Positions 1,085 to 15,611 of a DNA stretch of 64,000 nt are shown here, piece by piece. The stretch lies in the NCBI RefSeq assembly GCF_004343725.1, contig NZ_PTQW01000009.1, positions 1 to 64,000 on the forward strand. Direction: 5' to 3'. A program made the position numbers and the translations under genes. The DNA is from Treponema sp. J25. Its GTDB lineage: Bacteria; Spirochaetota; Spirochaetia; Treponematales; Breznakiellaceae. Numbering within the stretch: the first letter of the stretch is position 1; each line of letters starts with the position of its first letter. Below the pieces are notes generated by a model, which was given only the letters and a program-made list of their open reading frames with translations, was not told the DNA's origin and searched no databases.

Positions 1085-2971
1085 TTACTCATTAAGATTA
1101 CTGTTTGTTTTATAAAAGGCTGCCTTTTGGTGATAGTAACCCAGCACAAAAATGCCTTGTTCTTCTAGGTTAAGTCTGGCAGGGAAAGGTGCAGCATCCA
1201 ACATATTTAGAAGCGTTTGGATCTTTCTGTCAGAAGCTCCTCCATATTCTGCTTTTGATGTCCAATAGTTTGAAAGACGTAATAAGGTAGGAAACACGCT
1301 AGCGGGAGTGGCACAAGCAGCAGTAAAATAACGATCTTTAATAGTAGCATTAATAGTATCGCCTATTGCTTCTTTCTGTACCTTTTCCAGTACTGCGAAT
1401 AAGCGTCCTAATACATAGGGCGTATTCTTGTAAGATTCATTTAATGACATTTGTAACACCTCCTGGTATGGATTTTTGCCATAACGGCGATATTTACGGA
1501 TTAAGTGGGCTTTTATATAGGCTGTACGAATATAGTTAATTTTTACACTACGAACTCTGTTATTTGCTGTTGTTTCCTCCCCATCGTGGCGTATACGATT
1601 TAAGATCGCGTTATACAAATTTTCAGGGTAGGGTGTACCCATGAGAATGGAACGCATAAAAGCTCCGCCTAACAAAGACCAGGATTTTTTTACCTCTTCA
1701 TCACGCTGGGTTACTTTGGGCGAAACACATTCGGCAAGAATGCGGTAGGGTGAGATGTACGTCGGCTGGTTAGCGTATTCTTTTTCGATTTGAAGGTCCT
1801 CGTAATGTTGCATAATTCGTTCAGCAAATACCCCAAATGGCTCAGTAAGGAAGAATCGTACGGCGAGTCGTGAGGCATTTGGCGCTAGCCCAAGCACATA
1901 GAAACGTGTATTGTCATCCAAATCTTCGCGCAATTTAGCTAAGTCTATGGCTCTCCCCTGTTCTACCGATTTCGCCACTTCTCCTAGCATTTTTTCTGCA
2001 TTGTTGGCACGCTTACGCTTGTTTTTATCATGGGCTTCTTCTGTTTTGCCTTCTTCTTGTTCCTGCTGATATTCTGGATTCAGAAACGAATAAAATGCAC
2101 TGGCGTAACGTTTGTCAGGTGCGTCTGCCCAATAAACGACAGCGGTATCTCCGAGAAAAATGGGCTGGTTCGGATTTTGCCTTGAAAGCAAATAGTTTAG
2201 TGCAACGCCATAGCCAGAAGCTACACGCTGACTGATGGGTGAATTAGCCCCCTGTTCTTTCCCATAAGAAGTAAAGGCATCCAGGTTGAAGCTCACCAAT
2301 GATGCACCTTTTGTTTGTGCTCCTGGAACTCCTTTAATGTCAGGATGCAACCGTGCAACAAGTTCCTTTTGTCCCGTGACCAAGCACTGCATTTCAGTAG
2401 TCTGTTGTCCTGTTCTGGAGTTTTCCCAAGCACGCCGAATTTCAGTGTCATCCAGTGCGTTTTTACCCTCTACCTGAAAGATGAGATTACCACCTTCCAA
2501 TAATCCTTCCAGATGACGGGCAATCACAGAATGTTGAGAAGCCGTTTTGGGGTTATACTTTTGTAGAAATGCGATAACCGCGTGCGCCGCTGGAGAGTCG
2601 GCTTTCTGAAGAAGTTGGACGTTACGTTCTCGAAACGCCTCGAAACGCTTTTGGGCATAATCTGGGTCTTTGGCTTCTTTCCCCGTTAGCCCAAGTACGT
2701 AAGTTGCGTTGTCACACAAAAAATTGGCAGCGATGTTCACGCTGCGTTTGACCTGTTCAGGAACATTCATGCGCTTGGGGAGCTCCACGGTCTTCTTCCC
2801 TTGCTGAACAGGAACAAAGAGCGGGATAATGTCCAACAATTCGCCTTGTTCGGACAAATTGAGCGCATAACTGACCGGCGCATTGCTGTAGCCTGGTTCG
2901 GCAATCTCTACGCCCTCTGGCGGGTCGTTCAGCAAAATCTGGTAGTAGTTGTAAAGCGCCTGCAAAATCAT
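1085..2971 (-). CDS. cas8c: Type I-C Cascade large subunit Cas8c (Csd1)
   Basis: 628 residues, a typical length for Csd1/Cas8c, the large subunit that recognises the PAM and recruits Cas3. It starts MILQALYNYYQIL, as family members do, and has the expected conserved blocks (SFNLDAFTSYGKEQ-type segment near the middle, then FYVLGLAPNASRLAVRFF). The ATG at 2971 overlaps the cas5 stop (ATGA), implying translational coupling. In type I-C systems an internal start near the 3' end of cas8c can produce a separate Cas11 small subunit. Candidate in-frame ATG codons exist in the last third, for example the Met of MSLNESYKNTPYVLGRLF, which follows AGGAGGTGT within about ten bases. That makes an internal Cas11c start plausible here. 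Confidence 0.92.
   Translation of the reverse strand: MILQALYNYYQILLNDPPEGVEIAEPGYSNAPVSYALNLSEQGELLDIIPLFVPVQQGKKTVELPKRMNVPEQVKRSVNIAANFLCDNATYVLGLTGKEAKDPDYAQKRFEAFRERNVQLLQKADSPAAHAVIAFLQKYNPKTASQHSVIARHLEGLLEGGNLIFQVEGKNALDDTEIRRAWENSRTGQQTTEMQCLVTGQKELVARLHPDIKGVPGAQTKGASLVSFNLDAFTSYGKEQGANSPISQRVASGYGVALNYLLSRQNPNQPIFLGDTAVVYWADAPDKRYASAFYSFLNPEYQQEQEEGKTEEAHDKNKRKRANNAEKMLGEVAKSVEQGRAIDLAKLREDLDDNTRFYVLGLAPNASRLAVRFFLTEPFGVFAERIMQHYEDLQIEKEYANQPTYISPYRILAECVSPKVTQRDEEVKKSWSLLGGAFMRSILMGTPYPENLYNAILNRIRHDGEETTANNRVRSVKINYIRTAYIKAHLIRKYRRYGKNPYQEVLQMSLNESYKNTPYVLGRLFAVLEKVQKEAIGDTINATIKDRYFTAACATPASVFPTLLRLSNYWTSKAEYGGASDRKIQTLLNMLDAAPFPARLNLEEQGIFVLGYYHQKAAFYKTNSNLNE
1087..1451 (-). 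other. Possible internal start for Cas11c within cas8c
   Basis: In frame with cas8c, an ATG at about 1451 (MSLNESYKNTPYVLGRLF) is preceded by CAGGAGGTGTTACAA, a strong Shine-Dalgarno sequence with good spacing inside a coding region. Translation from it would give a helical protein of about 120 residues from the Cas8c C-terminus. This matches the known production of the type I-C small subunit Cas11c by internal initiation. The ribosome-binding site is seen directly; the function is inferred from the family. Confidence 0.6.
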
Positions 2972-3633
2972 CGCCGCACCTCCTCAGGTTTTGGCACGGT
3001 AATCTCGCCGTCTTCCATGACAGCGCGGAAGAACATCGGCTGAATGTCGCGCGGGTTGGAGAAATCCAGGTCGTAGAGCATGTAGCCCAAGTCACGTTTA
3101 CCTGTCAGCGGGCTTGTGGGAATGCCGCCTTTGTCTTCGATGAGCATCACTCTGGCAGGGAACTCGCGCGTCCCCAGGCAGGGGGCGTGGAAATGCTGCC
3201 CGTTCCGCAGGCGGCGCAAGACCATGTTGTAGTGCTTCTCTTTCGTGTCATCTGGTCCCGCCTTTTCGGTCAACTCGAAGTGCGCCTCGATGACGTAATC
3301 CACATCCTTCAAGACCATCGCGGCGCGCTGCTGGCGGGCTTCGGTGGCGGCGATGTAGAGCGGCTTGTTTGCGCCCTTCATCACCTGCAAGGCGTTATCC
3401 ACCGACGCCTTGTCGCTCACCTCGTTACGGCGGATGTTGGTGAACTGGATTTCCTTAAGGACGTGGATTTTCTCTATCACCCAGCGAATGGCGGGTTTCC
3501 AATAGACAGCCTCGATAATACCGCGCGCCGCCGACGGGGTGATAACATCATAGCTGACGCGCTCCACTTTCATTTCGGGACGGGTGAACAGGGCATAATC
3601 ACCCTGTACTCGGATGGTAATACCATATCCCAT
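2968..3633 (-). CDS. cas5: Type I-C CRISPR protein Cas5c (Csd5/Cas5d)
   Basis: 221 residues. In type I-C, Cas5 replaces Cas6: it cleaves pre-crRNA at the repeat hairpin and stays bound to the 5' handle. The N-terminus GYGITIRVQGDYALFTRPEMKVE and the segment RREFPARV/GTREFPARVMLI are typical; a His-containing C-terminal half (QHFHAPCLG) is also present. The frame extends upstream to 3783, but the ATG at 3633 is preceded at the right distance by AAAGGAGGCC (3641-3650), so the longer start is rejected. It lies 88 bases after the cas3 stop and overlaps cas8c by ATGA. Its composition is more GC-rich than that of cas7. Confidence 0.92.
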   Translation of the reverse strand: MGYGITIRVQGDYALFTRPEMKVERVSYDVITPSAARGIIEAVYWKPAIRWVIEKIHVLKEIQFTNIRRNEVSDKASVDNALQVMKGANKPLYIAATEARQQRAAMVLKDVDYVIEAHFELTEKAGPDDTKEKHYNMVLRRLRNGQHFHAPCLGTREFPARVMLIEDKGGIPTSPLTGKRDLGYMLYDLDFSNPRDIQPMFFRAVMEDGEITVPKPEEVRR

Positions 3634-3721: not shown

Positions 3722-6700
3722 TTAAAACAACAACCCCTCGCCACCACCATTGTCAGGAACGAGTAGGCCACGCTGGGGATCATAAAAATCGTTCATTGCC
3801 TCTGGGTTAAGAAAGTGATACGTGTCTTCGATAGTCTGAATCACCCCTTTCGCACTGAGCCTGTCAAACTCATTCTCAAAAATTGAAACTGTGTAGGGCT
3901 GAAGTTTTCGTAATGTAGATAATGGATAATCGGTATATTTTAACTCATCGATGAGTATTTCTGCCTCCTTGTTATATGGAATGATTACTGTTACGGTTGG
4001 GTCCTCGATGATGTGGAACGCCTGTGCCGCCGTCTCGAACTTGAACCTGCCGTCTGTGTCATCGAAGCATTCCATGATGTGCTTGAAGTCAAATGCCTGC
4101 GGCTCTTGAAGGTTGTACAACTGTCCGAAAAACGCCTGAATAGCAGGAATAGAAATTGGCGCTTCTGCGTGTTCGCGTAAAACCATCCGGGCAACTTCGG
4201 CGGTTTGTTTCAGGAAAAAGGGCATTTTCTTGATAAGCTCCGACTTCGGTTCGAAGACGAACATCTCGCTCACGCTGCGCTTCATTTCGCGGTTGATGCG
4301 TCCTGCTGCCTGATTGATGGAATCCAGTCCCGTCAGGGCGCGGTATCCAACAGGGAAGTCTAGATCAATGCCCGCTTCCATAACCGTTGTCGATATGACA
4401 CGACAGAGCTGCCCCTTTGCAAGTCGTTCTTTGATTTCTTCCAGTCTGATGCGACGATGGGCGGCACACATCAACGTTGAAAGATGATAGTTCCCCTCGC
4501 CCTGCAAACCGACGAACAGTCCGCTGGCGTGGCGGCGGGTGTTGACAATGCACAGAACTTGCTCGTGTTTGTTCAGACGAGTAAGCAGATCTCTATCGGT
4601 AAGCTCGCCGAGATGTTTTACTACCACGCGCTTGAAGAAATTGAACAACTGCTGCGGATTGGGTGCGAGTTCCTTAACTTCTGTCTTTTCGGGCAGGAAA
4701 CGTTCCAGCCCTGGCTGAGTAGCCGTACAAAAGAGTACGCTTGCGCCGTAGTTGACCACCAATTCCCAAATCGCCGCCATCGACGGGCGCATGTACTCGC
4801 GGGGCAGCATTTGGGCTTCGTCAAAGATAATCACGCTTCTGGCAATGTTATGCAGTTTGCGGCAATGTGATGATTTGTTGGAAAATAACGACTCGAAGAA
4901 TTGCACGTTGGTCGTAACCACGATAGGGATATCCCAGTTCTCCGTAGCCAGTTTTAGTTTGGTAAGTACGCTGTTTGTGCGGTCATCAGGATTGTCTTTC
5001 CTCTTACTTTCCCAGTCGAAGTGGGAGTGATGCTCCAGCACGTTCTCTTCCCCAAAGATATCTTTGAACACCCCGGCATTCTGTTCGATGATGGTCGTAA
5101 ACGGGATAACATAGATGACGCGCTTTAAGCCATGTTCAGCGGCGTGATGGAGCGCAAACGCCATCGAAGCCAGTGTCTTGCCGCCACCTGTGGGTACAGT
5201 CAGCGAGAAAAAGCCCGGCGATTCGGTCTTACCTTTTTCAATGCAGGCATGGAGTATCTCATTGCGCTTGCGGTTGATCTCGCTGTTCGGATTTTCGAAG
5301 CGTTTCAGGTATTTGTCCAGTTTATCGCGCAAAACTGGGATGTTGTCATGTCCGCCGCGCGGCTTTGCGCCTTTCATGTAGGTTTCAGTTTCTTGAAAGT
5401 CGGCGTCTACCAGTGCAGAGTAAATCATGCGTGTCAGGAAAGAAAGCGAAAATCCGAGATAGTCTTTGGACTGTTTTTCATAAAAAACGGGTAGGCGCAA
5501 GGGGCGAATAGGCAAACGTTGCGGAAATTCCAAAGAAGACAAGTCCAACTCGCTTTGGTATTCGTTGTAATCAGAAATGTGGTTTTTTAGCCGCCCACAG
5601 ACGGTACTGCTTTCCAAATCAGTTTCACTGCCATAATCGGGCAAGCCTGCATGATGTCCCAGAATGGGATATGCCAGTAGTTGAGCAAAGACTTGTTGGG
5701 GTGTGCCTTCGAGCAGCTTTTTGAGTTCCTTTGCCCCTGCTGTAGAATGGTCTACCCGTGGGCCTATACCTTCTAACCGCTTTTGAAACTCGGTGGAGTA
5801 TTTGCCCAAATCGTGAACCAATCCCGCAATGTATGCTAACTCTGCGACGTTGGCGTCCGCCCCGAACTTTCGGGCAAGTTCAGCTGTGTTTCGCAAGTGT
5901 TCAATGAGTGGCTGCCAGTATTCGTGGACTTCCCCTTCGCGACGGTGAGCGAAGAAACGGGTTTGCGGTTCGTTGAGAACTGCTATCCCATACAGTTTTA
6001 CTAGTCGCTTTGCCTCCTTCACCAGAACTTCACGCAGTTCTGGTGGTTCCAGTACTTCCACATCCGCTCCCCAGCCACGAATCCAGGGAAGCATTTCAGT
6101 AGTCTCAGCTATGTCTGCCTGCCATAAAAGATAACCATTTTCCTGTTCCTGAATTTTTTGGGATAGATGCCATCGGCTTTCTTTTACCCGTTGAGCGACT
6201 CTTGGATGAAATCGCAACACCACATGCTTTGGTTCTTCTTCGGTAGTCCAAATTGCCCAGGCATTTGCTAAATGTTCTCGTAGATTAAAATCTGTGGGAA
6301 TAGTATACTTTTCTGTCGTTTTTTCAGCCCGTTCAATCCGTTCAATCTTGTAGGTACGAAGTGCTCCTGGAGGTTCACTAAAACATATAAGTTGGGTGGT
6401 TTGTCCTGTCGCGTATGGTTCAATAAAATAAGGACTTACAACGTAAACAAATACTTTATCCAACTTTTCACTTCGATGCCAAATTCTGACCTTTTGAAGG
6501 TTAGCCCAACCTTCTGTTAGGAGTTCTAAAATACGTAAATAATTGGGATCGTCTATTTGGATATCACTATCCATTATATCGGCTGCCACAAGAATTTGCT
6601 GACTGAGGCGGTCTGCCCAAAGTTTCATGGCCATACCAAGTTTTCTCAAGGCCGATGCTGCATGAGGGTTTTTCTTATCTGATCGTGTTGCAAGAAGTCT

Positions 6701-6955
6701 CGACGACAAATGCAGGGCCATCGCTTCATGGAGGTTTAACTGAAGATTGATTAGATCTGCCTTCCGATCTATTTTCAGCGTTCTATCATCATCTTCATAA
6801 ATGTAAGAAGGAAGATCTGTGAGGTATCGATTGATAGTGGAGCGATCTACCTGTAATCGACGAGCTAGTTCTGCCTGGGAGAGTCCTTCGGGATGAGCTA
6901 GAAGGAGTGTTTCAATCTGTAATAAACGACTTGCCTTATTTTCCGCTCTGTTCAT
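3722..6955 (-). CDS. cas3: HTH-WYL transcription regulator fused to Cas3 helicase-nuclease
   Basis: 1077 residues with two parts. Residues 1-330 are a WYL regulator: a winged HTH (about 10-55, LSQAELARRLQVDRSTINRY), a WYL fold (about 150-215) whose signature is changed to TTQLICFSE, and a C-terminal WCX-like domain (245-320). Residues 331-1077 are a complete type I-C Cas3: HD nuclease (VHDLGK at 380-385, DHSTAGA near 402, HHAG near 434), Walker A TVPTGGGKT (586-594), DEAQ box (712-715), CTATQP (743-748) and QAAGRINRE (882-890). The joint has no stop and no ATG or GTG between residues 288 and 331, so a separate Cas3 start is unlikely. Ordinary Cas3 proteins start at FFAH-like residues near 334. 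Cas3 unwinds and degrades DNA recruited by Cascade. The fused regulator could sense a nucleic-acid ligand and control the operon or the nuclease. Confidence 0.9.
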   Translation of the reverse strand: MNRAENKASRLLQIETLLLAHPEGLSQAELARRLQVDRSTINRYLTDLPSYIYEDDDRTLKIDRKADLINLQLNLHEAMALHLSSRLLATRSDKKNPHAASALRKLGMAMKLWADRLSQQILVAADIMDSDIQIDDPNYLRILELLTEGWANLQKVRIWHRSEKLDKVFVYVVSPYFIEPYATGQTTQLICFSEPPGALRTYKIERIERAEKTTEKYTIPTDFNLREHLANAWAIWTTEEEPKHVVLRFHPRVAQRVKESRWHLSQKIQEQENGYLLWQADIAETTEMLPWIRGWGADVEVLEPPELREVLVKEAKRLVKLYGIAVLNEPQTRFFAHRREGEVHEYWQPLIEHLRNTAELARKFGADANVAELAYIAGLVHDLGKYSTEFQKRLEGIGPRVDHSTAGAKELKKLLEGTPQQVFAQLLAYPILGHHAGLPDYGSETDLESSTVCGRLKNHISDYNEYQSELDLSSLEFPQRLPIRPLRLPVFYEKQSKDYLGFSLSFLTRMIYSALVDADFQETETYMKGAKPRGGHDNIPVLRDKLDKYLKRFENPNSEINRKRNEILHACIEKGKTESPGFFSLTVPTGGGKTLASMAFALHHAAEHGLKRVIYVIPFTTIIEQNAGVFKDIFGEENVLEHHSHFDWESKRKDNPDDRTNSVLTKLKLATENWDIPIVVTTNVQFFESLFSNKSSHCRKLHNIARSVIIFDEAQMLPREYMRPSMAAIWELVVNYGASVLFCTATQPGLERFLPEKTEVKELAPNPQQLFNFFKRVVVKHLGELTDRDLLTRLNKHEQVLCIVNTRRHASGLFVGLQGEGNYHLSTLMCAAHRRIRLEEIKERLAKGQLCRVISTTVMEAGIDLDFPVGYRALTGLDSINQAAGRINREMKRSVSEMFVFEPKSELIKKMPFFLKQTAEVARMVLREHAEAPISIPAIQAFFGQLYNLQEPQAFDFKHIMECFDDTDGRFKFETAAQAFHIIEDPTVTVIIPYNKEAEILIDELKYTDYPLSTLRKLQPYTVSIFENEFDRLSAKGVIQTIEDTYHFLNPEAMNDFYDPQRGLLVPDNGGGEGLLF

Positions 6956-6978: not shown

Positions 6979-6984
6979 AGTATA
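6979..6984 (-). promoter_or_regulatory. Probable -10 box of the cas operon
   Basis: TATACT on the minus strand, 23 bases before the cas3 start at 6955. No good -35 hexamer lies at 17 bases; the place is taken by the palindrome at 6988-7018. That is expected for a promoter run by a bound regulator. Only AAAGG precedes the start codon, a weak ribosome-binding site. Confidence 0.5.
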
Positions 6985-6987
6985 CAC

Positions 6988-7018
6988 TTACTTTGTTGCA
7001 GGTACTGCAACAAAGTAA
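6988..7018. promoter_or_regulatory. 31-bp palindrome, candidate operator for the WYL-Cas3 fusion
   Basis: TTACTTTGTTGCAG and its exact complement CTGCAACAAAGTAA flank a 3-base centre (GTA), a perfect inverted repeat with 14-base arms. A further half-site, CTTTGTTGAA, sits at 6967-6976 in direct orientation. The palindrome covers the -35 region of the putative cas promoter and ends 33 bases before the start of a gene whose product begins with an HTH-WYL regulator. Autoregulation is the natural reading; it is inferred, not shown. Confidence 0.65.
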
Positions 7019-8507: not shown

Positions 8508-9311
8508 TTACTCACCCCTTGTGATTTCTTGCGCCTTTTGTCGAATGTTCTCCCGAATTGCCGTATCCCGAACCTCTATAGAACCCTTAAACGAAGCAGA
8601 ACGGGACACCCGGTGTGCCTCTACAGCTTCCTGGATGGTTTCTACAAAGACTGAACCGGCTACCACCGCATGCACCAGCGGAGCCACGGCTCGGGCCTGG
8701 GTATGGGAACGAATTCCGAATCCCCCGAGAACCTTAGAACCGCCAGCGGCACAGGCCTTTAAGAATTGAAGGGTCCCTTCGCCGATAGTGGTGGTAGTTC
8801 CGGTAATCCCGGTACGGAGCGCCGCGTACAAGTAGGCGCGGCCTAAGTGGGCCATCCGTTCAAGCCGTTCGGAACGCATGGACGGGGCCGCCACGGGAAT
8901 AGAAACAAGGCCCTGGTGTGCACAGGCCTCCGCAAGGCCTTCATCTCTGTCAAAGGGTAAATCCGGCACGATGAGCCCCATCACCCCTCGTTGAGCCATC
9001 ATATGCACAAACTGTTCTACCCCCGGGGTTACCACGAGGCTTGCGTAGGCCATCACAAAAAGGGGCACCTGGGGAAAGTCCCTGTGAAGGGACTCAAGAA
9101 AATCCAGAGCCTGGCTCACCGAATACCCGTTGGCCAGGGCTGCAGCGCAGGCACTTTGAATAACCGGACCATCAGCGCTGGGGTCACTAAAGGGGATTTG
9201 TATTTCCAGGTAGGATGCTCCCCCTTCGATAAGCCCTTCGGCGGCGGCCCGGCAACCAGAGGCGTCAGGGAAGCCCGCCACAAGGTGGGCCATAAGGCGA
9301 ATCTTATCCAT
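8508..9311 (-). CDS. trpA: Tryptophan synthase alpha chain
   Basis: 267 residues, the normal TrpA length. It cleaves indole-3-glycerol phosphate to indole and glyceraldehyde-3-phosphate, passing indole to TrpB. The catalytic Glu and Asp lie in YLEIQIPFSDPSADGP, the glycine loop in GLIVPDLPFD, and the phosphate site in GGFGIRS near the C-terminus. The family's usual TGVTG loop reads TGITG here. The open frame reaches 9386, but the ATG at 9311 is behind GGGAGG and starts where the family begins, so it is chosen. It overlaps the trpB end by 8 bases. Last gene of the operon. Confidence 0.93.
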   Translation of the reverse strand: MDKIRLMAHLVAGFPDASGCRAAAEGLIEGGASYLEIQIPFSDPSADGPVIQSACAAALANGYSVSQALDFLESLHRDFPQVPLFVMAYASLVVTPGVEQFVHMMAQRGVMGLIVPDLPFDRDEGLAEACAHQGLVSIPVAAPSMRSERLERMAHLGRAYLYAALRTGITGTTTTIGEGTLQFLKACAAGGSKVLGGFGIRSHTQARAVAPLVHAVVAGSVFVETIQEAVEAHRVSRSASFKGSIEVRDTAIRENIRQKAQEITRGE

Positions 9312-10653
9312 GATGAACCTCCCGGGATGTGGGGGATGAGATGAGCTTCGAGGTAGTAGAGTGGGCGACCCCTCTGGCATTTTCAAGACCTGTTCCCGAG
9401 GAGGGGGGTGGGGCGATTCCGGAAGGGTGCGCCCTGAGGGCCGCGAGTTCCCGTTCCAGGAAGGCGGCCCACGCGGCGGGTCTGAAATAGGGGGCGGTGA
9501 TAAAGAGGTCCTTGTCGCCCCGACCAGACATGTTTACCACCACCACCTTTCCTTTTGGAAGGGAACGGGCAAGATTGATAGCCACCGCTCCCGCATGGGC
9601 GCTTTCCAGGGCAAAGACTACCCCCTCGTGGCGGGCAAAGAATGTCAGGGCTTCCAGGGCCTCTTCGTCACTGGCCCGGCGAAATTCTAGGCGACCGCTG
9701 CGGCCCAGGGCCGCCAGCTGAGGTCCGATGCCAGGGTAATCCAACCCTGCCGAAATAGAATGGGTGGGGGCCACCTGGCCTTCTTCGGTTAAAAGGAAGC
9801 GGCTCTTGTACCCATGCACAATCCCGGTACGGGCCCCTTCTCCGGTCATGCGGGCCGCATGGTCCCCCAGGGAGGTTCCCCTTCCGCCGGCTTCTACTCC
9901 AATAAGGCGGGGCTTTTCTGCTTCAAGGTAGGGAGAAAAAAAGCCAATCGCATTTGAACCACCCCCTACACAGGCCACCAGGGCTTCTGGTTCAAGTCCC
10001 CGGGAAGCAAGCTGTTCTTTCACTTCCTTCCCAATCACGGATTGAAAGGTGCGAACCATATCGGGATAGGGGGCGGGTCCCAGGGCAGACCCGATAATGT
10101 AAAAGGTGTCCGCAAACGAAGCGGCCCAATCCCGGAATGCTTCGTTAATGGCATCTTTCAGGGTCTGGCTCCCCGCATAGACCGGCACCACCTGGGCGCC
10201 AAACAGTTCCATGGTGGCCACATTAGGCTGTTGCCGATCCACATCCACCGCCCCCATGTAGATGGTGCAGGAAAGCCCCAATTTGGCGCAGGCCGCGGCG
10301 GTGGCAAGACCATGCTGGCCCGCCCCCGTTTCGGCGATTACCCGGGTCTTCCCCATCCGCTTCGCCAGGAGGGCCTGACCCAGGGCGTTGTTTATCTTGT
10401 GGGCCCCCGTGTGGGCAAGACCTTCCATTTTTATGTAAATATCTGCGCCTCCCAGGAGGCGGCTGGAATTCTCTGCATATAACAGAGGCGTAGGTCGACC
10501 AATAAAGTCCCGCTGGAGCAGCGCCAATTCATCCTGAAATGCCCTATCGGTACAGGCTGCTTCAAAGGCTTCTTCTATTTCTTCAATGGCCCGCCCCAGA
10601 ACCTCTGGGACGTAGCGTCCTCCATAGGGACCAAAGTAGCCCTTTTCACCCAT
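9304..10653 (-). CDS. trpB: Tryptophan synthase beta chain
   Basis: 449 residues. A PLP enzyme that condenses indole with serine to form tryptophan. It begins GYFGPYGGRYVPEVL, carries the PLP lysine in HTGAHKINNALGQ, the indole-channel Glu in ETGAGQHG, and the glycine-rich phosphate clamp GGGSNAIG. About 40 residues extend beyond the usual C-terminus (Pro/Ser-rich, running into the trpA start). They appear to be a non-conserved tail created by the overlap. It overlaps trpCF by 8 bases. Confidence 0.94.
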   Translation of the reverse strand: MGEKGYFGPYGGRYVPEVLGRAIEEIEEAFEAACTDRAFQDELALLQRDFIGRPTPLLYAENSSRLLGGADIYIKMEGLAHTGAHKINNALGQALLAKRMGKTRVIAETGAGQHGLATAAACAKLGLSCTIYMGAVDVDRQQPNVATMELFGAQVVPVYAGSQTLKDAINEAFRDWAASFADTFYIIGSALGPAPYPDMVRTFQSVIGKEVKEQLASRGLEPEALVACVGGGSNAIGFFSPYLEAEKPRLIGVEAGGRGTSLGDHAARMTGEGARTGIVHGYKSRFLLTEEGQVAPTHSISAGLDYPGIGPQLAALGRSGRLEFRRASDEEALEALTFFARHEGVVFALESAHAGAVAINLARSLPKGKVVVVNMSGRGDKDLFITAPYFRPAAWAAFLERELAALRAHPSGIAPPPSSGTGLENARGVAHSTTSKLISSPTSREVHHG

Positions 10654-12394
10654 GCTGGTACTCCTTGTGTTGATTGCTGGCCCTCGCCGGTGCTTCTTCT
10701 TTTCCGCCCTCGGGGTGCGCTATGGCAGCAAAAAAGGCCCGCAGTTTTTGCGGATCCTTTTTTCCCGGCTCGGATTCCAGGCGGCTTGAAGCATCTACCA
10801 ATTCTACTGGATATCGAGATAGAAGAGAACCCACCGTCTCTGCCGAAAGGCCTCCGGCAATCCAAAGGGGAGAATAGAAAGAAGAGCCGGCAGGGCCCTG
10901 AGTAATGAGGGTATCCAGTACCTCATCTTGAATTGGTATTCCCGTTCCGCCGCTCTGGTTTCCCACCCGTCTGTCTAAAAGAATTCGCACCTCCCCGCGT
11001 TTTTGAAGAACCTGGTACGCCTCTCTGTCGGCGGGCTGACTTACCGGCAGTACCACATACCGCCCCACATCATCGGGTAGCTGAGCAAGGACCTCCTCAT
11101 CCAGGGGGCCATGGTATTGGATACCATCCAGGAGTCCTTCCCGTACCAGCCGAAGAGCCTCCTGGGCCGCAGGACTCTGCACATCACTGATAACCCCGAT
11201 GAAGAGGGGGTGGGGCACATCACGGGTATTGCCTTTCCCTTCGGGGAAATAGAACGAAGAAAGAAGGGCCCGGGCCTGGCGGACAAAGGCTACATCTGTT
11301 TTTCGGGGACTGGGGGCGAAGATAAAACCGAGGAGGTCCGCCCCTAATGTAAGGCAGTGCTGCACATCTTCGAGCCGGGTAAGTCCACAGATTTTAACAA
11401 GGGGCGGGGCGCCCAAGCGCCAATAGCGGTGAGACTCGATGGGCACCTGACTCTGACGATAGGCCCGCCGTTGGGCAAGGCGTCGCCACAGTTCTCCCGC
11501 CGCAGGAAGGGCGCTGTTTTCCTGTCTATTTCCTCGTCCCGTTCCGGGCCGGAGATCCCCCAATGAAGAACCAGAAATCCCTTCCTGTGGGCTTTCTCCG
11601 CTGAGTCCAGAAGACCCCTGAAGCTGATTTCTGGTTTGGGTAAAATGACGGATAAGCAGAGAAATCTGTTCCTTCTGGCGGACCGCCCCTTCTCCTACCA
11701 GGATGCCTGTGTATCCCAGGTGGGCCGCGTAGGAAGCCTGAAAGGGAGTCTGAACCCCCGATTCGTAGATGGCGGGGACGGGAAGTTCGGTGATTCTCAG
11801 GGCTGGGAGGAGGGGATCGATCGTAAAGGTTCGCAAATCCCGGCTATTGACCCCCGCAAGACAGGGAAGACGCTCCGCCACGAATCGTAGTTTGGGGAGG
11901 TCCTCCTCTTCCCGTACTTCGATAAGGGGCTTCATCCCAAAACGGACGGTCTGTTCGGCTAAGTGGAGAAGGGTGTCTGTATCAAAGAGGCGGGCGATTA
12001 ACAGCACCCCATCCGCACCGGCCCGGTATGATACGGCGATATCATCATCGGTAAGGATAAAGTCCTTCCTCAAGAGGGGGTGATGAGGAAAGGCTTTCCC
12101 TACTTCGAGTAGGTCCTGCAGGTTCCCCTTGAAATAGTGTTCTTCCGTAAGGATGGAAATAGCCTTCGCTCCCGCCTCGATATAGGTTCTGGCGGTTTGT
12201 ACCGCATCAAGGTCAAGCGCAATGGCCCCCCGGGAAGGGGAGGCCCGTTTTATTTCGAGGATTACCCCCCCCGCGGACAGGAAGGGGTTCACCGGTCGTT
12301 GCCGCTCCAGAGGAACGGGATAGCCCAGGGCTGGCCCCCTGCGGGCAAGGTCCTCCCGGCGTTGCTGGACAATCCGCTGAAGAATGTCATCCAT
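10646..12394 (-). CDS. trpCF: Fused indole-3-glycerol phosphate synthase / PRA isomerase
   Basis: 582 residues, two TIM-barrel enzymes for consecutive steps. Residues 1-252 are TrpC (ILEIKRASPSRG, LLRKDFI, GVNSRDL, ESGV). Residues 331-562 are TrpF (KICGLTR at 334-340, QYHG, ending in VDASSRLE). This is the same domain order as in enterobacterial TrpCF. They are joined by an unusually long linker (about 253-330) rich in Ser, Gly, Gln and Arg. The linker looks disordered and is not part of either enzyme. It overlaps trpGD by 8 bases upstream and trpB by 8 bases downstream. Confidence 0.93.
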   Translation of the reverse strand: MDDILQRIVQQRREDLARRGPALGYPVPLERQRPVNPFLSAGGVILEIKRASPSRGAIALDLDAVQTARTYIEAGAKAISILTEEHYFKGNLQDLLEVGKAFPHHPLLRKDFILTDDDIAVSYRAGADGVLLIARLFDTDTLLHLAEQTVRFGMKPLIEVREEEDLPKLRFVAERLPCLAGVNSRDLRTFTIDPLLPALRITELPVPAIYESGVQTPFQASYAAHLGYTGILVGEGAVRQKEQISLLIRHFTQTRNQLQGSSGLSGESPQEGISGSSLGDLRPGTGRGNRQENSALPAAGELWRRLAQRRAYRQSQVPIESHRYWRLGAPPLVKICGLTRLEDVQHCLTLGADLLGFIFAPSPRKTDVAFVRQARALLSSFYFPEGKGNTRDVPHPLFIGVISDVQSPAAQEALRLVREGLLDGIQYHGPLDEEVLAQLPDDVGRYVVLPVSQPADREAYQVLQKRGEVRILLDRRVGNQSGGTGIPIQDEVLDTLITQGPAGSSFYSPLWIAGGLSAETVGSLLSRYPVELVDASSRLESEPGKKDPQKLRAFFAAIAHPEGGKEEAPARASNQHKEYQHG

Positions 12395-14015
12395 GGGAAG
12401 CTCCCACCGCTTCGGTAATATCCTTGCCTACGGAGATGATTTCCTCCAGTTTTTTGCTGGCCTTTCCGCTGGCAAGACAATCCGCGGCGATACGGGCCCC
12501 CTCGCTTACCGAAGCCGCCCGGCCGGATACATACAGGGCGGCCCCCGCATTAAAGGCCACCGCCGCTTCAATGGCCGGTCGACCGGCCCCGGCCAGTAGG
12601 TCCCGGGCAAGGCGCACATTTTCCTGGGCCGTACCACCGGCGAGTTCTTCCCGGGAATAAAGGCCAAACCCTTCTTTTACGGGATCAAAGGTAAGATGGG
12701 TAAGGTTCCCCTTTTCATCGATTTCTACCATGTCAGTAGGAGCCGCGGGGGAAATTTCATCAAAGCCGTCGTGGCTATGAACCGTAAGCACCCGCTGTAC
12801 TCCCAGGAGATGGGCCGCCCGGGCCACCACTTCCAGAAGGTCCCTATCGTATACGCCGATGACCTGATAGGTCGCATTGGCGGGGTTTGAGAGGGGCCCC
12901 ACCAGGTTCATGATGGTCTTTATACCCAGGGCTTTTCGGGCCGGGGCCGCATGTTTCATTGCGCCGTGATAGAGGGGCGCAAAAAGAAAGACAAAGCCCG
13001 TGGTTTCAAGGAGCTTGGCCGCCTGCGAAGGATGAAGGTTGATGGGAATCCCCAGGGCTTCGTAGAAGTCGGCGCTCCCGGCCTTGCTGGAAACGGCCCG
13101 GTTCCCGTGTTTTGCGATGGGAAGCCCGCAGGCGCTTGCCACCAGGGCAGCCATGGAACTGATATTGAAGGAACCCTGCCCATCTCCACCGGTGCCGCAG
13201 GTGTCGGCCAGGGGTATGGGAGTTCCCAGAGGGAATGGCGTTTTTTTCCGTCGGAGAACCGCGGCGCACCCGGCGATTTCTTCGGGGGCGGGCTTTTTTA
13301 TGGCCAGGGCGGTGAGAAAGGCCGCTACCTGGGCCGTTTCCATGGTACCGTCGGTAAGTTCCTCCATAAACGCTTCGGCTTCTTCCTGTTTCAGGTGAAT
13401 TCCCTGGATAGCCTTTTCAAAGGTCTTTTTAAAGGGGAAAGGTTCCCGACGATACTGAAGAAAGGATCGAATAAGGGCTTCCCCTTCGGTACTGGCGATC
13501 GATTCAGGATGAAACTGAATCCCTTCTATTAGATAGTGTTTGTGGCGTACTCCCATGATGTCCCCATCGGAACTCCGGGCGGTAATCTCCAGTTCTGCTG
13601 GAAGGGTCTTTTCATTGATTACAAGGCTATGGTAACGGGTAAAGGTTCCTTTTGTTCCAATAGTCCTGAACATGCCCCGGCCGTCCAGGGTAATTTCCTG
13701 GGCCTCCCCATGACAAATCCGCTTTGCCTGGACAATGGCCGCCCCGAAGGCGTAGCCAATGGCCTGATGACCGAGACAAATCCCGAGGAGGGGGATTTGT
13801 CCTGCAAAGTGGCGAATTACCTCCACCGTAATCCCCGCATCCTCTGGACGGCCGGGGCCGGGAGAAAGGATAATCCGACTGGGGGCAAGCCGTTCTATAT
13901 CCTGTATCGAAATCGCATCGTTGCGGACGACCCGCACTTCTTCGGCCGAAAGCCGGCTTACCATCTGATACACGTTGTAGGTAAAGGAATCGTAATTATC
14001 AATAATAAGGATCAT
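12387..14015 (-). CDS. trpGD: Fused anthranilate synthase glutaminase / anthranilate phosphoribosyltransferase
   Basis: 542 residues. Residues 1-190 are the TrpG glutamine amidotransferase: LIIDNYDSFTYN start, nucleophile Cys80 in GICLGHQAIG, His169 and Glu171 in QFHPES. Residues 200-540 are TrpD (DTCGTGGDG at 271-279, KHGNRAVSS, NLVGPLSNPA). The glutaminase supplies ammonia to TrpE; TrpD then adds phosphoribosyl to anthranilate. The frame is open upstream to 14174, but the ATG at 14015 follows CAGGAGGTCGATC, starts exactly at the TrpG N-terminus and overlaps the trpE stop (ATGA), so it is chosen. Confidence 0.94.
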   Translation of the reverse strand: MILIIDNYDSFTYNVYQMVSRLSAEEVRVVRNDAISIQDIERLAPSRIILSPGPGRPEDAGITVEVIRHFAGQIPLLGICLGHQAIGYAFGAAIVQAKRICHGEAQEITLDGRGMFRTIGTKGTFTRYHSLVINEKTLPAELEITARSSDGDIMGVRHKHYLIEGIQFHPESIASTEGEALIRSFLQYRREPFPFKKTFEKAIQGIHLKQEEAEAFMEELTDGTMETAQVAAFLTALAIKKPAPEEIAGCAAVLRRKKTPFPLGTPIPLADTCGTGGDGQGSFNISSMAALVASACGLPIAKHGNRAVSSKAGSADFYEALGIPINLHPSQAAKLLETTGFVFLFAPLYHGAMKHAAPARKALGIKTIMNLVGPLSNPANATYQVIGVYDRDLLEVVARAAHLLGVQRVLTVHSHDGFDEISPAAPTDMVEIDEKGNLTHLTFDPVKEGFGLYSREELAGGTAQENVRLARDLLAGAGRPAIEAAVAFNAGAALYVSGRAASVSEGARIAADCLASGKASKKLEEIISVGKDITEAVGASHG

Positions 14016-15499
14016 GATCGACCTCCTGAAATAGTCTCTGCCACTCCTTTCACAGGGCTGGTAGCGGTCCCCTGCAGGGCCTGGCGGAGGGCCGCCAGTT
14101 TTTCGTTGGTTTCTTCCCACTCCCGTTCCGGCCGGGATGCGTAGACTATCCCGGCCCCCGATTGCAGGTACCAATAACCATCTTTTACCAGGGCGGATCG
14201 AATGGTAATGCAGGTGTCGAAACCGCCATGCACATCCAGATATCCTACCGCACCGGCGTAGAAACTCCGGCGATACCGTTCCTGTTGGGAGACGAGTTCA
14301 ATAGCCCGAAGTTTCGGCGCCCCCGAAACCGTGCCCGCAGGAAACGCCGCCCGAAGCACCTGGGTGTAGGGAATCGCCGGATTGGGCTTTCCTTCCACCT
14401 CTGAAACGATATGCATCACGTGGCTAAAGTGTTCTATTTCCATGTTGCGGGTTACCTGAACTGACCCGGCAAGGCACACCCGCCCCAGGTCGTTCCGGGC
14501 TAAATCTACCAGCATTAGGTGTTCCGCCCGTTCCTTGGGGTCCGCCAGCAGTTCCGCCTCTAAGGCCCGGTCTTCATCGGCGGTTCTTCCCCGTCGCCGG
14601 GTCCCCGCAATGGGACGAATAGAGGCTACCCCATCCCGTAGTCGGACAAGACTTTCCGGCGAAGCCCCTATCAGGGCGTAGGATCCAAAATTGATATAGA
14701 ACATGTAAGGGGAAGGACTGGTGGAACGGAGCCGTCGGTAGCCTTCCAGGGCATCCAATTCAGAACGGCAGACCAGACGACGGGAAAGGACTCCCTGAAT
14801 GATATCTCCTGCAACGATGTGCCGTTGTAATTTTTCTACCCCTTCACAGAAGATGAGTTTGTCCGCCCCTTCGTCACTCATGATTTCCAGGGGAACCGCC
14901 GCAGCCGGTGGTGCCAGGTAGGTAAAATCCAGGTCATCCAGCCGTTGTCGAACCTGATGAATAGCCTTTTCCAGATCGATCTGGTGTTGTTCGTAGTTAA
15001 GGCCCACCAGGTGCAACATATCCGTGTAGTGGTCCACGATAAGATACAGGTGCCCAACGATGAATTCCGCTTCGGGAATACCAAGGGGGTCCTCTCCGGG
15101 ACTCAGGGTTACCGTATCGCAGCGTCGCACAAATTCGTATCCTAAAAAGCCAATCCCCGCACCGGGGACCGGTAAATGGGGGACGGCGGCGCTATTTTGC
15201 CCTGCAATTGTAGCAAGGGCGTCCAGGATATCCCAGCCTTTTCCCGAAGGCGCTTCATGAGCAGGACCTGGCCATGACCAGCGGTGGCGTTTCCCATCTA
15301 TTTCCAGGATGACATCATTCTCTTCCTGGATGACGCGAAAGGCCTCGTCCAGAAGAAGGATAGAGTACCGTTCCCGTCCTTTTTTAAACGAGGCCGATTC
15401 CAGAATGGCCCGGGCCCCCAGTTTCTTAGCCAGCGTAAAGGGGGTAAATCGTTCTCCCGGAATGGAAAGGATAAGGCATCGGTCGCCGCTGGATTTCAT
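14012..15499 (-). CDS. trpE: Anthranilate synthase component I
   Basis: 495 residues. It converts chorismate to anthranilate with ammonia from TrpG. The chorismate-binding half has the family signature PIAGTRRRGRTADEDRALE, DLARNDLGRV, FPAGTVSGAPK and GAVGYLD. The start at 15499 follows ACAGGAGGGACC; the frame runs further up to 15568 but without support. First gene of the operon. A 31-codon frame in the leader (15591-15496) ends at a TGA overlapping this ATG, but it has no ribosome-binding site and only one Trp codon. In the leader, GTCGAGT (15598-15604) can pair with ACTCGAC (15551-15557), and a second stem (15518-15544) sits just before the ribosome-binding site. The ordinary feedback region near the N-terminus is expected but hard to see. 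Confidence 0.93.
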   Translation of the reverse strand: MKSSGDRCLILSIPGERFTPFTLAKKLGARAILESASFKKGRERYSILLLDEAFRVIQEENDVILEIDGKRHRWSWPGPAHEAPSGKGWDILDALATIAGQNSAAVPHLPVPGAGIGFLGYEFVRRCDTVTLSPGEDPLGIPEAEFIVGHLYLIVDHYTDMLHLVGLNYEQHQIDLEKAIHQVRQRLDDLDFTYLAPPAAAVPLEIMSDEGADKLIFCEGVEKLQRHIVAGDIIQGVLSRRLVCRSELDALEGYRRLRSTSPSPYMFYINFGSYALIGASPESLVRLRDGVASIRPIAGTRRRGRTADEDRALEAELLADPKERAEHLMLVDLARNDLGRVCLAGSVQVTRNMEIEHFSHVMHIVSEVEGKPNPAIPYTQVLRAAFPAGTVSGAPKLRAIELVSQQERYRRSFYAGAVGYLDVHGGFDTCITIRSALVKDGYWYLQSGAGIVYASRPEREWEETNEKLAALRQALQGTATSPVKGVAETISGGRS

Positions 15500-15611
15500 G
15501 GTCCCTCCTGTATGATTCCAGGGCCTTCGAAAACCTGTCCCTGGAGTATCGTCGAGTCCCGCCCCCATCGGCGAGCGGTGTATCTATACATAGAAACACT
15601 CGACAGGGCTT

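Follow-up and report, generated by a model that had tools for sequence, protein, structure and literature searches.

Fusions of WYL proteins to Cas3 in type I CRISPR systems were reported by Makarova et al. in 2014 (PMC4012209). BrxR and CapW, the better-studied WYL proteins linked to defence, repress their own defence operons. DriD is an activator triggered by ssDNA; its half-sites lie 7 bp apart, overlap the −35 region and keep a constant distance to the −10 element of promoters with poor −35s (PMC12340889). PafBC is an activator, like DriD. Little is understood of how type I CRISPR operons are controlled or of what the WYL proteins linked to cas genes sense.

The window analysed here is a stretch of 64,000 nucleotides of Treponema sp. 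J25 (GCF_004343725.1, genome G000), beginning at base 1 of contig NZ_PTQW01000009.1 (C9). It encodes a WYL regulator fused to Cas3, and the initial annotation, made from the letters alone, implied that this fusion was new. The 2014 report precedes it, and the architecture is covered by the PADLOC model PDLC01766. The operator site and the moves of the regulator between CRISPR subtypes appear to be undescribed; a literature search, mostly outside subscription journals, found no account of this operator or of a tested function of the fusion.

The fused gene and its operon

The gene lies on the minus strand (3722–6955), with its ATG at 6955 and its stop at 3722, and is one uninterrupted frame of 1077 codons, for a protein of 1077 aa. 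The initial annotation had described this frame without its strand, with a winged HTH and WYL/WCX domains in residues 1–330 and the Cas3 motifs HD, Walker A, DEAQ, CTATQP and QAAGRINRE after them. All of these features were found again, the regulator domains by Pfam, AlphaFold and Foldseek. Pfam placed HTH_11 at residues 10–48, WYL at 142–211 (20.3 bits, slightly under the cut-off of 21.8), WCX at 243–318 (69.9 bits), HD at 351–438, DEAD at 585–748 and Cas3-like_C_2 at 798–890. The NCBIfam models cas3_HD (TIGR01596, 350–523) and cas3_core (TIGR01587, 585–904) both scored above their cut-offs, and the PADLOC Cas3c model PDLC01766 matched over its full length (1–1009) to residues 2–1077 with 1597 bits. 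The helicase part carries GGGKT, DEAQ, CTATQP and QAAGR; a frameshifted Cas3 was rejected, as every motif is present.

Along the minus strand, the chain begins with a winged helix-turn-helix (residues 1–66, positions 6758–6955; Pfam, AlphaFold and family alignment), in whose recognition helix Arg38, Ser39, Thr40 and Arg43 are almost invariant across the regulator family. A DriD-like three-helix bundle follows (residues 67–133, 6557–6757; AlphaFold helices 75–91, 97–110 and 115–129), then a WYL Sm-like barrel (134–220, 6296–6556) and a WCX domain with a C-terminal helix (221–322, 5990–6295), both seen by Pfam and AlphaFold. A flexible linker at about residues 323–336 (5948–5989), with pLDDT below 50 at 325–330, leads to the Cas3 HD nuclease domain (337–530, 5366–5947; TIGR01596) and the superfamily-2 helicase with the C-terminal region (531–1077, 3725–5365; TIGR01587). 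Fold prediction of the whole chain, proposed as a check in the initial annotation, modelled both halves confidently with the loose linker between them (mean pLDDT 87.9, pTM 0.69; regulator half alone, pLDDT 90.8).

Foldseek found the type I-C Cas3 structures 8zns and 8g9u nearest to the nuclease part. For the regulator part DriD came first and PafBC second, with BrxR and CapW further down, and a sequence profile search gave DriD at 5e-24 over the whole length and PafC/PafBC at 5e-11. Sensing of a nucleic acid, as suggested earlier, is plausible in view of the ssDNA-sensing DriD and PafBC, to which the regulator is closest among solved structures in both sequence and fold; from this kinship we infer that single-stranded nucleic acid is a likely ligand of the WYL pocket. 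The classic WYL residues are indeed replaced, as had been noticed, but mostly by a change common to the family, whose motif is T-T-H/Y-V-I-G. Gln188, in the place of His/Tyr, is alone peculiar to the window and to G194, a completed genome from the same family. In a residue mapping made for this analysis, the DriD aromatics Tyr168 and Tyr192 align with His160 and Gln188 of the window, and Arg200, Lys203 and Arg206 of the barrel are retained. It is possible from these residues that the ligand specificity has changed.

The fused gene heads a type I-C gene set that forms one operon by PADLOC, all on the minus strand: cas3, cas5c (2968–3633, 243 bits; likely start MGYGITIRVQG, the longest ORF starting at 3783), cas8c (1085–2971, 545 bits) and cas7c (172–1038, 361 bits). 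The contig ends shortly past cas7c. The end of another contig of the same genome, C10, carries cas1, cas4-like and cas2-like ORFs assigned by position and by the gene order of G194, and a CRISPR array in which a 33-nt repeat is matched 41 times. The order in G194 is WYL-cas3, cas5, cas8, cas7, a cas4-like ORF and a cas1-like ORF. Judged from both contig ends and this order, C10 probably continues the operon of C9. Two other loci were observed: a second cas locus in the same genome (L129, G000:C13:208732-209562) has cas1 and ORFs resembling cas2 and cas4, together with the tail end of a helicase-like ORF, and the window contains a trp operon (8508–15568) with trpC-trpF (10646–12394) and trpG-trpD (12387–14174) fusions that look ordinary as read from the sequence.

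The G194 genome is one contig of 3,239,340 bp and contains this fusion too, 75% identical and with the start (MNRAENKA) and junction unchanged. Between the two copies dN/dS was about 0.07 in the wHTH, WYL and HD domains and 0.11 in the helicase; synonymous sites are close to saturation, and the three-helix bundle, WCX domain and linker were not computable. Where dN/dS could be computed, these values point to purifying selection on both halves of the chain. An error of sequencing or assembly that joined two frames is practically excluded because the fusion recurs in the single-contig genome and because dN/dS is low.

The promoter palindrome and its likely use

A candidate operator, the palindrome TGTTGCAGTACCTGCAACA (TGTTGC-N7-GCAACA; 6994–7012, minus strand), overlaps the −35 region of the fused gene. 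It can be extended to CTTTGTTGCAG-TAC-CTGCAACAAAG (6991–7015, minus strand), upstream of the ATG, and its counterpart in G194 is TTTGTTGCA-TTACC-TGCAACAAA. The probable −10 hexamer, TATACT (6979–6984, minus strand), begins exactly 28 nt past the first base of TGTTGC. The promoter lacks a −35 hexamer; the palindrome takes the place of the −35 region. The possibility that the palindrome instead terminates the upstream gene was rejected: on that strand the T-run precedes it, and no terminator was found.

The only exact match to TGTTGC-N7-GCAACA in the 3.18-Mb Treponema genome is the one at the fused operon. The perfect core palindrome likewise occurs once per genome, always at the regulator's cas operon, in this genome, G194 and two Chloroflexota genomes. 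For wider counts, a class-A pattern (TGTTGCR-N5-YGCAACA, up to 2 mismatches) was built with no other sequences than those of the window and G194. This pattern was found in 34 of 82 upstream regions (32 of 80 without the two spirochaetes), at fused and unfused regulators alike, and in 1.9% of 3200 control windows drawn from the same loci. A class-B operator, TGTTGCRNRATTYS, added 25 upstream regions against 0.6% of control windows; its definition (TGTTGCGGAATTYG) was made post hoc from data already seen.

Counted from the first base of TGTTGC, the −10 lies 28 nt away in 31 of 34 class-A sites and in 19 of 25 class-B sites. The combination of TGTTGC and a −10 exactly 28 nt away stands upstream in 47 of 80 loci, is absent in this strict form from the other 33, and occurs in 1.7% of control windows; the upstream regions of six cas3 genes that lack this regulator are all without it. 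The centre of the palindrome is near −31, so that the −35 position falls within the part between the half-sites that is not conserved. The distribution of operator classes agrees with the regulator tree, with 11 changes against a mean of 19.4 after shuffling (none of 500 shuffles as low), and L113, whose regulator half differs, carries the other class. This is the pattern that a regulator–operator cassette would show. That the nuclease and operon control are coupled, as the initial annotation proposed, is thus well grounded, since the regulator heads the operon and a unique, conserved palindrome lies in its promoter. Taken together, these sequence patterns suggest that the regulator very probably governs its operon from one DNA site close by.

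Further sites of this kind were seen. The class-B promoters of L050, L053, L054, L055 and L062 have a second, inverted half-site, GCAAC, past the −10 and about 35–40 nt from TGTTGC, which suggests long-spaced or looped binding. On the 3.1-kb contig C61 of the Treponema genome (L137), an operator with one mismatch, TGTTGCGGTACCTGCAACG, lies at 189–207 with TATCCT exactly 28 nt further. It sits inside a relaxase-like ORF on a contig that also has a replication/primase-like ORF, and may be due to chance or be a decoy or plasmid target.

The reading that we consider on balance probable is a fused, DriD-like autoregulator that binds the promoter palindrome, activates the operon and senses ssDNA or another single-stranded nucleic acid. 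The regulator half would very likely form a dimer on the single TGTTGC-N7-GCAACA palindrome of its own promoter, and the bound dimer would flank the position of sigma region 4, 28 nt from the −10. From there it would most likely activate the operon, as DriD does at DriD promoters, and the WYL pocket would most likely sense single-stranded nucleic acid. Cas3 makes ssDNA at invader DNA, and sensor, source of the signal and operon control would then be one molecule in a feed-forward loop. The nuclease half, catalytically complete by its motifs, would carry out ordinary Cascade-dependent degradation.

Assuming that the operator is in use, activation appears fairly likely and is favoured over repression because the spacing is rigid, the −35 is missing and the regulator is related to DriD. 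An autorepressor, in which the chain on the palindrome would block RNA polymerase and be released by a ligand or when target DNA titrates Cas3 away, seems rather unlikely. BrxR (11-bp repeats with a 5-bp spacer) and CapW share the domain order and palindromic sites and repress their own operons, Sll7009, a regulator of a CRISPR I-D system, also represses, and the candidate operator overlaps core promoter DNA. With their extended −10, class-B promoters could function on it alone and may need no activator. However, in fold and sequence DriD and PafBC, both activators, are closer than BrxR and CapW, the sites of CapW cover the −10 and not the −35, and a rigid 28-nt spacing with no −35 is expected of an activator and unnecessary for a repressor.

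Distribution, junction and history of the regulator

Relatives of the regulator half numbered 254 in public genome contigs. The best 80 of these are nearly all from Chloroflexota, with 48–63% identity. In 7 of these best 80 the regulator is joined to an I-C Cas3 and in 11 to an I-E-type Cas3, and a separate regulator gene stands directly upstream of an I-C Cas3 in 10. Most other separate regulators precede another Cas3 (8 scored as I-E-like, 28 as other Cas3). The regulator lies upstream of a helicase-HD Cas3 in L053 (next gene cas8a), L058 and L125, and heads cas8b in L079 (I-B) and cas10d in L116 (I-D). In Chloroflexota the regulator heads I-C, I-E, I-B, I-D and Cas8a operons, in some cases as a separate gene and in others fused, to I-C or I-E Cas3. 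Seven family members (L074, L075, L094, L111, L118, L124 and L126) have no recognised Cas3 adjoining, some of them with TldD/PmbA or Nramp genes as neighbours, and may be orphan regulators. G253 and G006 were taken as fusions from their read-through frame lengths and rejected, as both have adjacent separate genes.

In a tree of 86 regulators, the labels I-C-fused and I-E-fused each change at least 6 times when only well-supported branches are used, a change being either a gain or a loss. L052, an I-E Cas3 fusion, is nested in one group with two I-C fusions, L049 and L070 (support 100/97). Fusion and partner subtype are therefore evolutionarily labile. The combination of one regulator with Cas3 of both I-C and I-E shows regulators and effectors to be modules that can evolve apart. 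We regard as tentative, and on balance doubtful, the larger reading in which ssDNA made by Cas3 switches on its own operon and a regulator–operator cassette moves among type I subtypes and its regulator fuses repeatedly to any Cas3 gene that happens to come next. If it is true that Cas3 products induce the cas operon, interference and expression would be directly linked. With its defined site, strict promoter geometry and naturally occurring fused and unfused pairs, the family allows direct tests of binding, ligand and direction of control.

The initial annotation stated that neither a stop nor an ATG or GTG separates the halves at residues 288–331. The stop is absent as stated, but in-frame start codons exist, an ATG at codon 288 and GTGs at 299 and 312. 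The fused gene could accordingly give two products, by an internal start near codon 299–312 or by proteolysis of the linker, and the halves would act separately; the linker is disordered in the AlphaFold model, and close relatives encode regulator and Cas3 as separate overlapping genes. This is improbable. None of the three codons has a convincing ribosome site, and from WCX to linker no start is common to the window and G194, where none is shared downstream of the EMLPW methionine (288 in the window, 290 in G194); Cas3 is unlikely, from these sequences, to be made from a separate internal start. The fusion itself is tolerated or favoured as such because it was gained or lost repeatedly. Still less probable is a WYL half that serves as an ssDNA clamp for the helicase with its regulatory role lost or minor. 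In Thermotoga elfii Pif1 the WYL domain binds ssDNA and is required for helicase activity (PMC9964779), but the recognition helix and operator are kept in fused members too and the unfused sister regulators have no need of Cas3. A clamp role in addition to regulation is possible by this analogy.

Of 59 near relatives, only 2 have the regulator. Cas5, Cas8 and Cas7 of the window are 68–85% identical to those of the Chloroflexota loci L067 and L070 and 32–59% identical to those of spirochaete-side loci of the same class, which have separate WYL genes at 32–41% identity to the window regulator. The simplest reading is that the window and G194 locus was probably acquired from Chloroflexota, with the caveat that many Chloroflexota records are metagenome bins. 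The Cas3 half of the window groups with L113 (86% identity, support 100/98; the AU test rejects a clade of window and G194 at p 0.007), whereas the WYL half groups with G194 (support 100/99; the AU test rejects a clade of window and L113 at p 0.0001). Identity between the window and L113 steps sharply from 48–72% to about 90% just before and around the linker. These results indicate that the two halves differ in history and that one half was exchanged.

Comparison with known systems

The fused regulator and DriD of Caulobacter both have the order wHTH-3HB-WYL-WCX, and both have N7-spaced sites over the −35 region at a fixed distance to the −10, with a poor or absent −35. They share about 20% identity, and DriD is free-standing. 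Its operator, ATACGAC-N7-GTCGTAT, differs from TGTTGC-N7-GCAACA, and it acts at several promoters other than that of its own gene, whereas the candidate site of the fused regulator lies at its own operon. BrxR and CapW are, like the fused regulator, WYL regulators of defence operons with palindromic sites in their own promoter regions; they are repressors, match the fold more weakly and have their sites elsewhere, that of CapW over the −10. At the promoter of the fused gene the palindrome lies not over or just downstream of the −10, as with such repressors, but upstream of it.

Sll7009 is likewise a WYL regulator that accompanies a type I CRISPR system, the I-D system of Synechocystis, but it is a separate protein and a reported negative regulator, while the window regulator is fused to Cas3. 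In T. elfii Pif1 a WYL domain is joined to a helicase, as in the window, and ssDNA binding is a feature of Pif1. Unlike the window fusion, its WYL domain is C-terminal and without a wHTH, its helicase belongs to superfamily 1 and it has no operator. The WYL-Cas3 fusions already described (PMC4012209, PDLC01766) have the same architecture, WYL joined to the Cas3 HD and SF2 helicase. In PMC4012209 the fusion is treated in one sentence, without operator, subtype or lineage.
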